Shown: piece after piece, positions 22,635 to 32,185 of the stretch
Layout of the letters: each line of letters starts with the position of its first letter
Numbering within the stretch: position 1 is the stretch's first letter
From: Acidobacteriota bacterium
Lineage (GTDB): Bacteria > Acidobacteriota > Thermoanaerobaculia > UBA5066
Assembly: GCA_029781975.1 (NCBI GenBank)
Contig: JAKOVQ010000053.1
Location: forward strand, 186,001-250,000
DNA: 64,000 nt
Direction: 5' to 3'
Notes under the pieces: generated by a model
What the model was told of the DNA's origin: nothing
The model's input: the letters and a program-made list of their open reading frames with translations, nothing else
Databases searched by the model: none
Position numbers and translations under genes: made by a program

Positions 22635-23887
22635 GCCGAGCCGCATACATCCTGAACGGGGCCCGAACGCCCTACGCCAAGGCGGGGACGGACTTCAAGG
22701 ACGTCCCGGCCACCGACCTGGGACGCATCGCGGCCGTCGAGGCGATGGCCCGGGCCCGGGTCGAGCCGGAGGAGATCGACCAGGCGATCTTCGGCAACAT
22801 CGCGACCCCCGTCGACGCCGCCAACATCGCGCGCGTCATCGCGCTCCGCGCGGGGATCCCGAAGGAGAGGCCGGCCCACTCGGTCTCCCGCAACTGCGCC
22901 TCCGGGATCGAGTCGATCGTCCAGGCGGCCCGGCTCATCCAGACGGGGGAGGCCGACGTCGTCCTGGCGGGCGGCGTCGAGAACATGTCGCTCATCCCGT
23001 TCCTCTACCCGGAGAAGGTGAAGGCGGTCCTGACCCAGGCGGGGATGGCGCGGTCGCTCCCGGACCGGGTGATGGCCTTCTCGAGGATGCCGTGGCCGCA
23101 GCTCCTCGACCCGGTGATCGGGATCAAGCAGGGGCTGACCGACCCGGTCTGCAACCTGAACATGGGGGAGACGGCCGAGATCCTCGCCAAGGAGGGGAAG
23201 CTCACCCGCGAGGAGCAGGACCGCTTCGCCCTGAGGTCGCACCAGCGGGCGACGCTGGCGCGCGACCGCCTGGCGCAGGAGATCGTCCCCGTCCCGATCC
23301 CGCCGGCCTTCGACCGGCTCTCCCTCCAGGACAACGGCGTCCGCGAGAACCAGACCATGGACGCGCTCGCGAAGCTGAAGCCGTTCTTCGACCGGAAGTA
23401 CGGGACGGTCACCGCGGGCAACTCGTCGCAGATCACGGACGGCGCCGCGGCGGTCGTCGTGGCGTCGGAGGACTTCGTCGAGAGGCGCAAGCTCCCGGTC
23501 CTCGGGCGCGTCGAGGGGTGGGGGTTCGCGGGGCTCGAGCCCGAGCGGATGGGGCTCGGCCCCTCGCGGTCGACGCCGGTCGCGCTGAAGCACGCCCGGA
23601 GGAAGCTCTCCGACGTCGGGCTCGTCGAGATGAACGAGGCGTTCGCCGCCCAGGTGCTGGCGAACCTCGCCGCGTTCGAGCGCGACCCGCAGCTCGGGCC
23701 CCTCGACCCGGACATCCTCAACGTGAACGGCGGCGCGATCGCCCTGGGGCACCCCGTGGGCGCCTCGGCGACCCGGCTCGTCCTGACGCTCCTCTACGAG
23801 ATGAAGCGCCGGAAGGTGGCGCACGGCCTGGCCACGCTCTGCGTCGGCGGCGGGCTGGGGGCCACGATCGTCCTGGAGGCCGCATGA
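22631..23887 (+). CDS. fadA: Acetyl-CoA C-acyltransferase (3-ketoacyl-CoA thiolase)
   Basis: A 418-residue thiolase for the last step of beta-oxidation, releasing acetyl-CoA. It opens AAYILNGARTPYAKAGTDFKD. The nucleophilic cysteine is in SRNCASGIESIVQAA, the catalytic His and final Cys motifs are NGGAIALGHPVGASATR and CVGGGLGAT. Length and motifs are closest to FadI / trifunctional-protein beta subunits. The TTG start overlaps the fadR stop and follows GGGGGA; the longer frame upstream runs inside fadR. It overlaps fadB by ATGA. Confidence 0.93.
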   Translation: MSRAAYILNGARTPYAKAGTDFKDVPATDLGRIAAVEAMARARVEPEEIDQAIFGNIATPVDAANIARVIALRAGIPKERPAHSVSRNCASGIESIVQAARLIQTGEADVVLAGGVENMSLIPFLYPEKVKAVLTQAGMARSLPDRVMAFSRMPWPQLLDPVIGIKQGLTDPVCNLNMGETAEILAKEGKLTREEQDRFALRSHQRATLARDRLAQEIVPVPIPPAFDRLSLQDNGVRENQTMDALAKLKPFFDRKYGTVTAGNSSQITDGAAAVVVASEDFVERRKLPVLGRVEGWGFAGLEPERMGLGPSRSTPVALKHARRKLSDVGLVEMNEAFAAQVLANLAAFERDPQLGPLDPDILNVNGGAIALGHPVGASATRLVLTLLYEMKRRKVAHGLATLCVGGGLGATIVLEAA

Positions 23888-26232
23888 CCACCTCGAAGAA
23901 GAAAGTGCTCGCCCCCGCGCCGGAGCCGGCGGAAGCGCTGAAGGCGCCGAAGACGCCGAGAACGCAGAGAACGCCGAGAACGCCGCAGGCGTCGCGGCCC
24001 CCGAAGCCGGCGAAGCCCCAGGAATCGCCGAGGCCGTCGAAACCGAAGGTCGCTCCGGCTGCGCCGAGAGCGCCGAAGGGGCCCTCGTTCCACCTCGCGG
24101 TCGAGACCGACGGCCTCGCCGTCCTCACCTTCGACTGCCCCGGCGAGAAGGTGAACAAGTATTCCACCCCCGTCGTCCAGGAGCTCCACGCCCTGCTCGA
24201 CGACCTGGCGAAGCGGGAGGACGTCAAGGCCCTCCTCCTCGTCTCCGGAAAGCCCGACGTCTTCATCGCCGGCGCCGACGTGAACGAGATTGCCGACACC
24301 CCGCTGGCCGACGTCGAGAAGGGGGTGAAGCAGGGGCAGAAGCTCTTCGTGAAGCTCGCGAACCTGCCGTTCCCGACGGTGGCCGCCATCGACGGCGCCT
24401 GCCTGGGCGGAGGGTGCGAGACCGCGCTGGCGATGGACTGGCGGCTCGCCTCGGACTCGAGGAAGACCCAGATCGGCCTGCCGGAGGTCAAGCTCGGGAT
24501 CCTCCCCGGCTGGGGCGGGACGACGCGGCTCCCCCGGGTCGTCGGGCTGGAGGCCGCGCTCGACCTCCTCCTGACGGGCAAGTCGCTCGACGGGCGGCGG
24601 GCGAAGAGGGTGGGGCTGGTCGACGAGGTGGTCCCGAAGACCATCCTCGCGGAGGTCGCCCGGGCGTTCGCGAGGGAGAAGTTCGGGACGAAGAAGCGGG
24701 CGAACGCGGGGCCCGGAGGCGGTCCGGTCCGGGTCGCCCCGGCCGGCCCGAAGGAGATGCTCCTCGAGGGGATCGGGAAGATGGCCGTCTTCTCCCAGGC
24801 GAGGTCGACGGTGATGAAGCAGACGCACGGCTGCTACCCGGCCCCGCTCGAGATCCTCCGGACCGTCGAGGAGGGCTTCGCCAAGCCGTTCCCGGAGGCG
24901 CTGAAGCTCGAGGTGGAGGGGGCGAAGCGGCTCGTCGGCGGGGAGGTCCAGAAGAACCTCGTGAACCTCTTCTTCCGGATGGAGGAGGTGAAGAAGGAGA
25001 CGGGGGTCGAGGGCGGTGTGGCGCCGCTCCCGGTCCGGAGGGTCGGCGTCCTCGGCGCGGGCGTGATGGGGGGCGGGATCGCCCAGCTCGCGGCCGACAA
25101 GGGCTACCCCGTGCGGATGAAGGACATCCGGAACGACGCCCTGGCCGGGGGCTACGCCGCGGCGGCGAAGGTGTGGCAGGAGCGGCTGAAGAAGCGGCGG
25201 ATGACGAAGGCCGAGTTCACGGGGAAGATGTCGCTCCTCTCCGGCGGCCTGACCTGGACGGCCTTCGAGTCGTGCGACGTGACGATCGAGGCGGTCCTCG
25301 AGAAGCTCGCGGTCAAGCAGGCGGTCCTGAAGGAGTGGGAGGGGGTCGCCCGCCCCGACGCGATCTTCGCGTCGAACACGTCGACGCTCCCGATCACCGA
25401 GATCGCCGCGGCCGCCGCGCGCCCCGAGCGCGTGGTCGGGATGCACTTCTTCAACCCGGTCCACAAGATGCCCCTCGTCGAGGTGATCTACGGCGCGAAG
25501 ACCGACCCGGCGGTGACGGCGACGATCTTCGACCTGGCCAAGAAGATGGGGAAGACCCCCGTCGTCGTGAAGGACGCGCCCGGCTTCCTCGTCAACCGCC
25601 TCCTCGCCCCTTACCTCGGAGAGGCCGTGAGGCTCCTCCTCGAAGGGGTCCCGATGGAGGCGATCGACCACGCGATGCGCGCCTTCGGGATGCCGGTCGG
25701 TCCCATCGAGCTCCTGGACGACGTCGGGATCGACGTGGCGACCAAGGGAGCCGAGACCCTCTCGGCCGCGTGGCCCGAGCGGATGCCGGTCGACCCGGCC
25801 TTCGGCAAGCTCGTCCAGGCGGGGCGCCTGGGCCGGAAGAGCGGCAAGGGGTTCTACCTCTACGACGGCGACAAGCGGACGGGCCCCGACCCGGCCGCCA
25901 CCGGCGCGCTCGGCCTCGAGGGACCCGGCACGAAGAAGCCGTCGGCCGACGAGCTCGAGGCCCGGCTCATCTACCCGATGGTGAACGAGGCGGCGCTCTG
26001 CCTCGCCGAGGGGATCGTCTCCTCGCCGGCGAAGCTCGACCTCGCCATGATCTTCGGAACCGGCTTCCCGCCCTTCCGCGGGGGACCGCTCCGCCACGCC
26101 GACGCGCGCGGCGCGAAGGCCGTCGTCTCCGCCCTGGAATCCCTCGCAGCCGCCCACGGGGCCCGCTTCGTGCCGGCGCCCCTCCTGACCGAGCACGCCC
26201 GCAAGGGGAAGACGTTCTTCGACGAGGAGTAG
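23884..26232 (+). CDS. fadB: Fused enoyl-CoA hydratase / 3-hydroxyacyl-CoA dehydrogenase with basic N-terminal extension
   Basis: A 782-residue alpha subunit of the fatty-acid oxidation complex. The hydratase domain starts near residue 68; its two catalytic glutamates are in GGGCETALAMDWRLA and LPEVKLGILPGWGG. The dehydrogenase half starts near 380 with GVLGAGVMGGGIAQLAADKG; catalytic His is in GMHFFNPVHKMPLVE, followed by KDAPGFLVNRLLAPYL and a C-terminal GTGFPPFRGG. Residues 2-67 are an extra Lys/Arg/Pro/Thr/Ala stretch (such as TPRTQRTPRTPQ) that normal FadB/FadJ lack, written partly with the AGA codon that the rest of the gene avoids. It pairs with the thiolase just upstream. Confidence 0.92.
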   Translation: MTTSKKKVLAPAPEPAEALKAPKTPRTQRTPRTPQASRPPKPAKPQESPRPSKPKVAPAAPRAPKGPSFHLAVETDGLAVLTFDCPGEKVNKYSTPVVQELHALLDDLAKREDVKALLLVSGKPDVFIAGADVNEIADTPLADVEKGVKQGQKLFVKLANLPFPTVAAIDGACLGGGCETALAMDWRLASDSRKTQIGLPEVKLGILPGWGGTTRLPRVVGLEAALDLLLTGKSLDGRRAKRVGLVDEVVPKTILAEVARAFAREKFGTKKRANAGPGGGPVRVAPAGPKEMLLEGIGKMAVFSQARSTVMKQTHGCYPAPLEILRTVEEGFAKPFPEALKLEVEGAKRLVGGEVQKNLVNLFFRMEEVKKETGVEGGVAPLPVRRVGVLGAGVMGGGIAQLAADKGYPVRMKDIRNDALAGGYAAAAKVWQERLKKRRMTKAEFTGKMSLLSGGLTWTAFESCDVTIEAVLEKLAVKQAVLKEWEGVARPDAIFASNTSTLPITEIAAAAARPERVVGMHFFNPVHKMPLVEVIYGAKTDPAVTATIFDLAKKMGKTPVVVKDAPGFLVNRLLAPYLGEAVRLLLEGVPMEAIDHAMRAFGMPVGPIELLDDVGIDVATKGAETLSAAWPERMPVDPAFGKLVQAGRLGRKSGKGFYLYDGDKRTGPDPAATGALGLEGPGTKKPSADELEARLIYPMVNEAALCLAEGIVSSPAKLDLAMIFGTGFPPFRGGPLRHADARGAKAVVSALESLAAAHGARFVPAPLLTEHARKGKTFFDEE

Positions 26233-29125: not shown

Positions 29126-29878
29126 TCAGCCGCCGGCGGGGACCTCCGCGGCCGCCAGCCGCGACGCACGGACCGCGCGGTCCACGGCGTCCGGCAGGGT
29201 CTCTCCCAGCGCCAGCCAGGCGGCGGCCGACGCGGCGATTCCAATGCCGGCGCCGGATGGCCCCGCGACCGGCGAGCCCCCCGGCTCGAACCGGACCCAC
29301 TCCCGCCCGTCGAGGAGCCGCTCCCCGAGCCGGCCCGAGGCGGAGACGCCCCCGATCACGAGGACGGCGCGGGGGCCGAACCCCTGGATGGCCCGCGCCG
29401 CCGCCTTCGCCTCCGTCTCTTCCCCCGGCGAGGAGCGGCCCGCCAGGCGAGCGGCGTCGTCGACGGTCGCCACGACGAGGTCGGCCGCGGGGAGGAGCTC
29501 CCTCCCGAGGGCCTGGACCACGGCCGTGCCGACGAGGGGGGAGCCGTCGCCGGCGGTCAGGACGGGCTCGACGACCAGCGGGACCCCGAGCTCGCGGACG
29601 GTCCGCGCGACCGCCCGGAGGACCGGGAGGGAGGGGAGCCAGCCGATGACGACGGCCCCCGGGAGAGCGCCTGCCAGGGCGGCCCGGAGCTGCTCCCGGA
29701 CGAGGGCCGACGGGACCTCGAGGGGGGGGCCGGGCTGGCGGGCCCCCCGGGCGGTGACCGAGGTGACCACGCCCGCGGGACGGACGGTCGCCGCCGACAG
29801 GGCGGCGAAGGCCGCCTGGAGCCCGGTGGAGCCGGTGGCGTCGGAGGCGTCGACCACCAGGACGGCGGGGGGTGCCAC
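29126..29878 (-). CDS. ThiD-like kinase homologue with altered active site
   Basis: A 250-residue ribokinase-fold protein related to hydroxymethylpyrimidine (phosphate) kinase. The ThiD opening motif GSDPSGGAG appears as ASDATGSTG, IGWLPSLPVLRAVA matches the IGML strand-helix, and VVEPVLTAGDGSPLV matches the VDPVM region. The terminal GTGC motif, which supplies the anion hole and catalytic Cys, is GAGIG here, and the Asp of the general kinase motif GAGD is missing as well. No other thiamine gene is nearby. It may bind a pyrimidine or have lost catalysis. The GTG start is the outermost in frame. Confidence 0.6.
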   Translation of the reverse strand: MAPPAVLVVDASDATGSTGLQAAFAALSAATVRPAGVVTSVTARGARQPGPPLEVPSALVREQLRAALAGALPGAVVIGWLPSLPVLRAVARTVRELGVPLVVEPVLTAGDGSPLVGTAVVQALGRELLPAADLVVATVDDAARLAGRSSPGEETEAKAAARAIQGFGPRAVLVIGGVSASGRLGERLLDGREWVRFEPGGSPVAGPSGAGIGIAASAAAWLALGETLPDAVDRAVRASRLAAAEVPAGG

Positions 29879-29911: not shown

Positions 29912-29934
29912 CGTTGCCCGGGAGGATTAGAGCA

Positions 29935-31119
29935 GTGGCAGAAGAGAGCCAGGACACCGTTACGCTGACGGTCGGTTCCCCCGCGCCGGGCTTCACGCTC
30001 CCGGGCCGCTCCGGAGCGTCCGTCTCCCTCGCGGACTTCGGCGGCAAGCACGTCCTCGTCTACTTCTATCCCAAGGACGATACTCCCGGATGCACGAAGG
30101 AAGCGTGCAGCCTGCGCGACGGCTGGTCCGAGCTGCAGTCCGCGGGGGTGACGGTCCTCGGGATCTCGCCCGACGACGCGGCGTCGCACAACGCGTTCGC
30201 CGCCAAGTACAGCCTCCCGTTCGAGCTCCTCACCGACGCCGACCACTCCGTGCACGAGGCGTACGGCGTCTGGGGGAAGCGCCCCTGGGGGATGGGGACC
30301 CTCCGCAAGTCGTTCCTGGTGGGGCCCGACGGCGCGATCCTGCACGTCTTCTCGAAGGTCGACGTGGAGAACCACGCCGCGCAGGTCCTCGCGGCGCTCC
30401 GGGGCGAGCCCTTCGCGCAGCCGGGCCCGGCCGCCGAGGCGAAGGTGGTCGTGGAGGCCGCGGTCGAGAAGGCCGGCGAGGCCGTCCAGGCCGTCGTCGC
30501 CGAGGCGAGGAAGGTCGCCGAGGAGACCATGGAGAAGCCGGTGGTCAGGAAGGCGGTCGCCGGGGCGAGCAAGGCGGTCGAGGACGCGAAGAAGGCGATC
30601 GCCGACGCGCAGAAGAAGCCCGCGGTGAAGAAGGCCGTCGCCGAGGCGAAGAAGGCCGTGAAGGGCGCGAAGAAGGCGATCGCCGACGCGCAGAAGAAGC
30701 CGGCCGTGAAGAAGGCCGTGGCCGGCGCGAAGAAGGCCGTGAAGGGCGCGAGGAAGGCGATCGCCGAGGCGCAGAGGAAGCCGGCCGTGCGGAAGGCCGT
30801 CGCGCAGGCGAAGAAGGCCGCGGCCGGCGCGAAGAAGGCGGTCCGCCGCGCCACGAAGGCCGCCGAGAAGAAGGCGCCGAACGCGTTCTCGAAGCTCATG
30901 GCCCTCGTGTCGCCCAGGAAGAAGGCGGCCCCGGCTCGCAAGAAGGCCGCTCCCGCCCGCAAGAAGGCCGCCCCGGCCCGCAAGAAGGCCGCCCCGGCTC
31001 GCCGGAAGGCGCAACCCGTCCGGAAGAAGGCCGCCGCGCGCAAGCCCGCGGCCCGCAAGGCCCCGGGCCGGAAGGCGCCGGCCCGCAAGCCGGCGGTCCG
31101 CGGGAAGAAGCGGAGATAG
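29935..31119 (+). CDS. BCP-type peroxiredoxin fused to a histone H1-like Lys/Ala-rich tail
   Basis: A 394-residue two-part protein. Residues 1-160 are a thioredoxin-fold peroxiredoxin of the BCP/PrxQ type, with peroxidatic C53 (YPKDDTPGCT) and resolving C58 five residues on, which reduces peroxides with electrons from thioredoxin. Residues 166-394 are nearly all Ala, Lys, Arg, Val and Pro: four copies of a 27-residue repeat (203-229, 230-256, 257-283, 284-310; e.g. AVKKAVAEAKKAVKGAKKAI), then PRKKAAPAR heptads from 327 and an Arg/Lys/Pro end. This tail resembles bacterial H1-like and eukaryotic linker histone tails and should bind DNA. The GTG start has GGGAGGA before it. The next gene starts directly after the stop codon. 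Confidence 0.9.
   Translation: MAEESQDTVTLTVGSPAPGFTLPGRSGASVSLADFGGKHVLVYFYPKDDTPGCTKEACSLRDGWSELQSAGVTVLGISPDDAASHNAFAAKYSLPFELLTDADHSVHEAYGVWGKRPWGMGTLRKSFLVGPDGAILHVFSKVDVENHAAQVLAALRGEPFAQPGPAAEAKVVVEAAVEKAGEAVQAVVAEARKVAEETMEKPVVRKAVAGASKAVEDAKKAIADAQKKPAVKKAVAEAKKAVKGAKKAIADAQKKPAVKKAVAGAKKAVKGARKAIAEAQRKPAVRKAVAQAKKAAAGAKKAVRRATKAAEKKAPNAFSKLMALVSPRKKAAPARKKAAPARKKAAPARKKAAPARRKAQPVRKKAAARKPAARKAPGRKAPARKPAVRGKKRR
30541..30864 (+). repeat. 81-bp coding repeats in the peroxiredoxin tail
   Basis: Four in-frame units of 81 bp encode the 27-residue Ala/Lys helix repeat. The units share most codons but differ in synonymous positions and in Lys/Arg choice, so they have diverged under selection for charge and helix. 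Confidence 0.85.
30913..31116 (+). repeat. 21-bp coding repeats (KKAAPAR heptads)
   Basis: Short in-frame repeats encode four KKAAPAR heptads followed by degenerate Arg/Lys/Ala/Pro units up to the stop. It is protein-level low complexity and is not a mobile or CRISPR-type repeat. Confidence 0.8.
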
Positions 31120-31443
31120 ATGGGAGGGACGGACCCCACGGAGACCATCCGCGTCACGGATCGGGCCCTCGCGGCGCTCCGCGCCGAGGGGCTCGATCCC
31201 CTCCGGACCTACCTCCGGATCCAGCACGTCCTCGGCTGCGGCGGCACGGGCTATCGCCTGACGTTCGGCGATGCCGGCCTGCCGGGCGGGGTCGAGGTGC
31301 GCGTGCCGGGCGGCCTCACCGTGTCCCTGGATGCTTACGCGAAGGCGCGCCTTTCCGGCGCGTCGATCGACTACGACCTGACGAAGGAGACCGAGGGCTA
31401 CTGGCTCGACCATCCGGACGCGGCGTTCGCCGCGTTCTGCTGA
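31120..31443 (+). CDS. HesB/IscA-like protein lacking the C-terminal CxC
   Basis: A 107-residue protein with the strand order of A-type Fe-S carriers: IRVTDRALAALR, a glycine-rich YLRIQHVLGCGGTGYRLTF with a cysteine where IscA has its first ligand, VSLDAYAKARLSGASIDYD, and the end YWLDHPDAAFAAFC. Genuine IscA/ErpA proteins end in CxC; here only one terminal Cys remains. It may bind a cluster differently or sense redox state. The ATG directly abuts the peroxiredoxin stop, so the two are coupled. Confidence 0.6.
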   Translation: MGGTDPTETIRVTDRALAALRAEGLDPLRTYLRIQHVLGCGGTGYRLTFGDAGLPGGVEVRVPGGLTVSLDAYAKARLSGASIDYDLTKETEGYWLDHPDAAFAAFC

Positions 31444-31465: not shown

Positions 31466-32185
31466 ATGTCCAAGGACAAGCTGACCAAGAAGGACATGAA
31501 GACCGACGAGCTGGAGCGCGCCCTCGAGGGAGCGCGCGACTTCGTCGTCACCCACAAGACCCAGACCTGGCACTGGGCGCTCGTGGCGGGGGCCGCCGTG
31601 GCCGTCGTCGCGCTCGTCTGGTGGGGGCTGAGCCTGAGGTCGAGCCGGCTCGACGCCCGCCTGTCGGACGCGCTCGGGCTCTACGACGCCCCGCTCGTCT
31701 CCCAGGGGGCCTCGCCCGTTGCCGGGGGGAAGGTGTTCAAGGACGCCGCGGAGAGGCAGGCCGCCGTGAAGAAGGAGCTCGAGGGGCTCGCGAACGACGC
31801 CCCCTCGTCGGACGCCGGGCGGGCCGCCCGGGTCCTCCTCCTTTCCATGGAAGGGGGCACCAACCCGCCGGCGAAGCTCCTCGACGGGGCCCGCGACCTG
31901 GCCGCCGAGAGGCCGGGCTCGCTGGTGAGCGGCGCGGCCGCCGCGGCCTACCTGGACGCCGAGGCCGCCGCGGGGCGCGCGAAGGACGCCATCGCGACGG
32001 CCAAGGGGTACCTCGACTCGTCGTCCTCGCCCCTCCCCAAGGACGTCCTCCTCTTCACCCTCGGGAGGCTCAGCGAGAAGGTCGGCCAGGTGGCGGAGGC
32101 GAAGACCTACTACCAGCGCCTCGTCAGCGACTACCCGGACTCCCCGATGCGCTTCGACGCGCAGCAGAAGGTGCAGGGGCTCTGA
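31466..32185 (+). CDS. YfgM-like membrane-anchored TPR protein
   Basis: A 239-residue protein with a charged cytoplasmic N-terminus (residues 1-33), one membrane helix at about 36-56 (WHWALVAGAAVAVVALVWWG) and a periplasmic helical repeat domain ending in LGRLSEKVGQVAEAKTYYQRLVSDYPDSPM, a TPR unit. This is the layout of YfgM/TPR_21 proteins, which act with the Sec translocon or BamB. It stands 22 nt after the Fe-S-like gene and 8 nt before deoB. Confidence 0.68.
   Translation: MSKDKLTKKDMKTDELERALEGARDFVVTHKTQTWHWALVAGAAVAVVALVWWGLSLRSSRLDARLSDALGLYDAPLVSQGASPVAGGKVFKDAAERQAAVKKELEGLANDAPSSDAGRAARVLLLSMEGGTNPPAKLLDGARDLAAERPGSLVSGAAAAAYLDAEAAAGRAKDAIATAKGYLDSSSSPLPKDVLLFTLGRLSEKVGQVAEAKTYYQRLVSDYPDSPMRFDAQQKVQGL

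Follow-up and report, generated by a model that had tools for sequence, protein, structure and literature searches.

A PrxQ peroxiredoxin with a conserved histone H1-like tail in one family of Acidobacteriota, and its putative tethering to the nucleoid

Why would a peroxiredoxin carry a long, histone H1-like tail? The question is raised by a gene in the window, a stretch of 64,000 nt from contig JAKOVQ010000053.1 of an Acidobacteriota bacterium (GCA_029781975.1), whose numbering we use throughout. A single uninterrupted open frame (29935-31119, +) runs from a GTG codon to a TAG stop (31117-31119) and encodes 394 amino acids. A Shine-Dalgarno-like GGGAGGA (29920-29926, +) can be read directly from the sequence 8 bases 5' of the GTG, and the start is shared with the tailed PrxQ orthologues, in which VAEE, MAEE or MADE marks the common start position. 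Upstream lies a divergent ThiD-like kinase (29126-29878, -). The next gene after the peroxiredoxin is HesB/IscA-like (31120-31443, +; a weak TIGR00049 match, with 24.9 bits for a cut-off of 58.8). Its start codon immediately follows the peroxiredoxin stop, it is kept as a neighbour in relatives, and the two genes are probably co-transcribed. A TPR protein (31466-32185, +) is a further downstream neighbour kept in relatives. The genome encodes a separate peroxide-defence cluster (L001, G000:C37), with a typical AhpC, a thioredoxin-reductase-like gene and a divergent rubrerythrin.

The enzyme occupies residues 10-156 (29962-30402, +), and profiles, alignment, AlphaFold and the closest folds agree on its identity. 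AhpC-TSA (PF00578) matches residues 13-137 (E 3e-37, 127.8 bits for a cut-off of 26), and the NCBIfam model of thioredoxin-dependent thiol peroxidases (NF006960) scores 147 bits, above its curated cut-off of 140. The active-site stretch PKDDTPGCTKEAC holds the PxxxTxxC motif with the peroxidatic C53, and the resolving C58 lies five residues on. In an alignment of 39 sequences P46, T50, C53 and R124 are invariant, and C58 is conserved in at least 90%. The complete BCP/PrxQ domain with C53 and C58 described in the initial annotation is thus borne out by profiles and alignment. The AlphaFold model of the domain has pLDDT values mostly of 90 or more. Its top Foldseek matches are BCP/PrxQ, and the closest solved structures are Bcp1/PrxQ proteins, with up to 40% identity. 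The domain has a net charge of -6, and inspection of the sequence by eye revealed no signal peptide or membrane segment in the tailed peroxiredoxin. As judged from these sequence features, the protein is a cytoplasmic, thioredoxin-dependent PrxQ peroxidase whose catalytic domain is ordinary. Its fold and C-x4-C active site resemble those of bacterial and archaeal PrxQ/BCP, such as Sulfolobus Bcp1 (3DRN) and Xanthomonas PrxQ (5IIZ), but these proteins finish at about 150-160 residues, whereas ours continues for another 237.

This tail (residues 158-394) is in frame with the PrxQ domain and has a net charge of about +58; Ala makes up about 31% of it, Lys 22%, Arg 9% and Pro 8%. The initial annotation had described it as four 27-residue helix units followed by KKAAPAR heptads. 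The repeats were confirmed: there are about four 27-residue units (residue autocorrelation of 0.54 at lag 27), and Tandem Repeats Finder gives a period of 81 bp with 4.3 copies, 3' of which lie a 21-bp unit (about 5.6 copies) and a 15-bp unit (5 copies). The count of helices was not: AlphaFold predicts five (165-197, 202-227, 231-252, 256-281 and 283-313) and a short sixth (317-325). The part between residues 165 and 313 (30427-30873, +), built of repeats of the type KKPAVKKAVAxAKKAVKGAKKAIADAQ, has helices with pLDDT of 57-75 that are moderately amphipathic (mean moment of 0.39 near 95 degrees). The C-terminal end (residues 327-394; 30913-31116, +) consists of KKAAPAR heptads and then ARKPA-type repeats; its pLDDT of about 40-58 agrees with disorder without proving it, and we consider this end probably disordered. 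It is strongly basic: the last 60 residues have a net charge of +28, and the last 80 residues of the protein are free of acidic ones. The confidence pattern of the AlphaFold model thus suggests a plan in which an enzyme is followed by a helical spacer and a probably disordered polycation. Long, repetitive, rich in Lys, Ala and Pro and poor in acidic residues, the tail is of the H1-like type. A Pfam scan of the protein excluded the Hc1 domain of the chlamydial histone (PF07432), which also had no match in 20 related genomes.

We analysed how the tails change between orthologues. Substitutions accumulate at the third codon position (334, compared with 180 and 158 at the first and second). The true frame makes 45% of the codon changes synonymous, the two alternative frames 16% and 9%. 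In within-genus pairs, pN/pS is 0.18-0.42 in the tails and 0.04-0.22 in the domains. These patterns indicate that the tail is translated and constrained, if less strongly than the enzyme; together with the conservation of the tail they exclude a chance or wrong-frame reading, and the in-frame Lys/Ala extension reported initially stands. What is conserved is less the sequence than the charge. Complete tails vary from 140 to 241 residues, their internal sequence is variable, and genus g3 has an APAPKPAAP-type Pro/Ala linker instead of the helical repeats. Yet every complete tail has a net charge of +39 to +58, and its last 80 residues, in the Pro/Ala-linker tails too, carry +28 to +46 with at most one acidic residue. 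The basic end is constant while the length and sequence of the spacer change, a pattern that would be expected if a polyanion were bound electrostatically by the end of a spacer that is free to vary.

The search for the domain pair proposed in the initial annotation revealed tailed orthologues in 12 of the 14 genomes of the same Acidobacteriota family: 11 with a tailed orthologue, the window's own genome included, and G012, in which about 139 codons of Lys/Ala tail remain at a contig end, adjoining the HesB gene. In 10 of the 13 other genomes the peroxiredoxin is 67-79% identical and has a Lys/Ala tail. One of the 14, G006, could not be scored (its contig begins inside HesB). The remaining genome, G003, is 96% complete and has an otherwise intact locus with no peroxiredoxin between ThiD and HesB; its peroxiredoxins are all tail-less. 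The absence of the gene from this good-quality member of the family shows that the tailed design is dispensable. The gene order ACAD-MBL-ThiD-Prx-HesB-TPR-DeoB is common to the loci of the family, with some gaps, and the occurrence of the same architecture in independently assembled genomes rules out an assembly artefact. A phylogeny of 134 PrxQ domains unites those of the tailed proteins in a single clade (support 100/99) on a long stem. The H1-like tail was apparently gained once, within this single family.

How unusual is such a tail? A survey of 464 kb of the 5.37 Mb genome (316 predicted ORFs) gave no 60-residue stretch more basic than the C-terminal 60 residues of this protein (+28, followed by +22), and no second copy was found among the 150 candidates scored out of 372. 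Within this scope, we can exclude that the tail is common to many proteins of the genome. A tailed HU performing the same job can be discarded, since none of the genome's three HU proteins bears a tail of this kind. We also compared the C-termini of other PrxQ proteins, using the best 80 loci of one collection scan and about 60 from relatives. Tail-less PrxQ loci, whether from the same order, class, phylum or other phyla, stop 0-12 residues past the domain. The sole exception comes from a planctomycete (L091), where a Lys-rich tail of 56 residues (L091:5447-5618, net charge of about +15) follows the domain; the position of this PrxQ elsewhere in the tree points to an independent gain. The assertion that free peroxiredoxins lack such tails is thus accurate for nearly all the other PrxQ examined, but not for this one.

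What could the tail be for? The initial annotation likened its make-up to bacterial H1-like proteins, and the conserved polycation has indeed the Lys/Ala/Pro composition found in HupB, AlgP and PhaF. The PAKK/KAAK tail of mycobacterial HupB is required for DNA binding in vivo, and HupB and actinobacterial topoisomerase I both consist, like our protein, of a domain with a long Lys/Ala/Pro C-terminal tail that is needed for stable DNA binding (PMC5676037). They differ in that their folded part binds DNA itself; the one described here is an antioxidant enzyme. In Pseudomonas, AlgP and PhaF join a non-histone domain to an H1-like KPAA tail, and these tails are thought to tether their cargo to the nucleoid (PMC9239181). 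Their cargo is polyphosphate or PHA granules, and a PhaF-type PHA granule protein was excluded in our case by the lack of a phasin match in the protein and of a PhaC_N match in the genome; without a match to a PHA synthase, a role at PHA granules is unlikely. Given the composition of the tail and the tested proteins with similar tails, we infer that it probably holds PrxQ on the nucleoid for the local removal of peroxide, the explanation that best accounts for our observations. The spacer, be it made of helices or of a Pro/Ala linker, would extend outward from the enzyme, and the basic end would bind DNA through its charge, without sequence specificity. The enzyme would thereby be kept on the nucleoid and reduce peroxide close to DNA, as the tails of Dps do for Dps. 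With one tail per PrxQ chain, the expected outcome would be tethering rather than strong DNA bridging or compaction; the latter may occur as a secondary effect. Two observations count against tethering: the design is dispensable, as G003 shows, and the adjoining downstream gene is HesB-like and not linked to DNA.

Polycations can bind other polyanions, such as polyphosphate, RNA and acidic membranes. The main rival is polyphosphate: the tail might place the enzyme on or near granules, possibly with DNA too, as for AlgP in Pseudomonas aeruginosa. AlgP has a similar KPAA tail, sits on polyphosphate granules and requires the tail for their spacing (PMC9239181), and the genome of the window has two polyphosphate kinase genes. 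The latter are a weak pointer, since the enzyme is a common one, encoded in 7 of 14 control genomes. AlgP-type tails are also believed to bind DNA, so that this alternative, which we regard as unlikely, does not exclude tethering. A little less likely still is the binding of RNA or ribosomes, or of acidic membrane lipids through the amphipathic Lys/Ala helices, with protection of these targets instead of DNA. Polycations do bind RNA and acidic lipids, and the moderate amphipathicity of the repeats would suit a membrane. Yet the genus with a Pro/Ala linker in place of the helical repeats retains the basic end, so that conservation does not lie in the helices, and the sequence read by eye offers neither signal peptide nor membrane segment.

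The least probable of these explanations is a weakly constrained expansion of AAG/GCC codon repeats with no specific role, or with a general one as a protectant or in solubility (LEA-like). The repeats do change fast in length and sequence, and the pN/pS of the tails exceeds that of the domains in the within-genus pairs given above. We consider this improbable: in-frame selection is clear, tails with the same strongly basic end are kept over 12 genomes, and an expansion of this kind is found only once in the 464 kb surveyed and has no second copy among the scored candidates.

Tethering of PrxQ to the nucleoid would have a functional parallel in Dps, whose flexible basic tails bind DNA while precursors of reactive oxygen are removed (PMC13319912). 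Dps couples peroxide defence to DNA binding in the manner proposed here, but with a ferritin fold and iron chemistry, and the two enzymes are unrelated. Among peroxiredoxins, the precedent is eukaryotic. PfnPrx of Plasmodium falciparum is a BCP/PrxQ-type peroxiredoxin associated with chromatin; it differs from our protein in belonging to a eukaryotic nucleus and in being listed as 1-Cys. Dot5, the nuclear thiol peroxidase of yeast, is of the BCP type, and its structure (2A4V) matches the PrxQ domain. It is eukaryotic, unlike the tailed PrxQ, and has a short basic N-terminal extension; it is not known to carry an H1-like C-terminal tail. We found no bacterial peroxiredoxin described as DNA-binding or H1-tailed in the open-access papers searched. 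The claim that no peroxiredoxin of this design had been described holds for Bacteria within those papers, but must be tempered by these chromatin-associated and nuclear proteins of eukaryotes. What seems new is the bacterial peroxiredoxin with an H1-like tail; the catalytic domain and the idea of a PrxQ located on chromatin were already known.

On balance, with odds only slightly in its favour, the tailed PrxQ may be a nucleoid-bound bacterial peroxidase, a Dps-like guard of DNA that acts through its H1-like tail, that arose independently of Dps and of the chromatin peroxiredoxins of eukaryotes, and that is perhaps also a redox-sensitive nucleoid-associated protein. Defence against peroxide at the chromosome has so far been linked to Dps in Bacteria and to nuclear peroxiredoxins in eukaryotes. 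If tethering is true, Bacteria can station a peroxiredoxin directly on their chromosome, and peroxide would be destroyed where it is most harmful. The variants that occur in nature, with a helical spacer, with a Pro/Ala spacer or, in one relative, without the gene, allow a direct test of whether local removal of peroxide protects DNA.

Two other observations were made along the way. A FadB/FadJ-like metabolic enzyme encoded about 6 kb from the tailed peroxiredoxin gene also seems to have a basic extension: Lys, Pro and Arg abound in its apparent first 67 residues (MTTSKKKVLAPAPEPAEALKAPKTPRTQRTPRT..., net charge of +13; 23884-24084, +). The genome also encodes a second PrxQ-like gene, L003 (G000:C24:552691-553119), with an in-frame TGA at the position of the peroxidatic cysteine. 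The gene is also represented by L122 and L124, the TGA recurs in the family members G003 and G012, and many relatives show the same single TGA; the N-terminus is signal-like in L003 and L124. Since the TGA stands at the cysteine site and the genome has selB, the gene probably encodes a selenocysteine peroxiredoxin.
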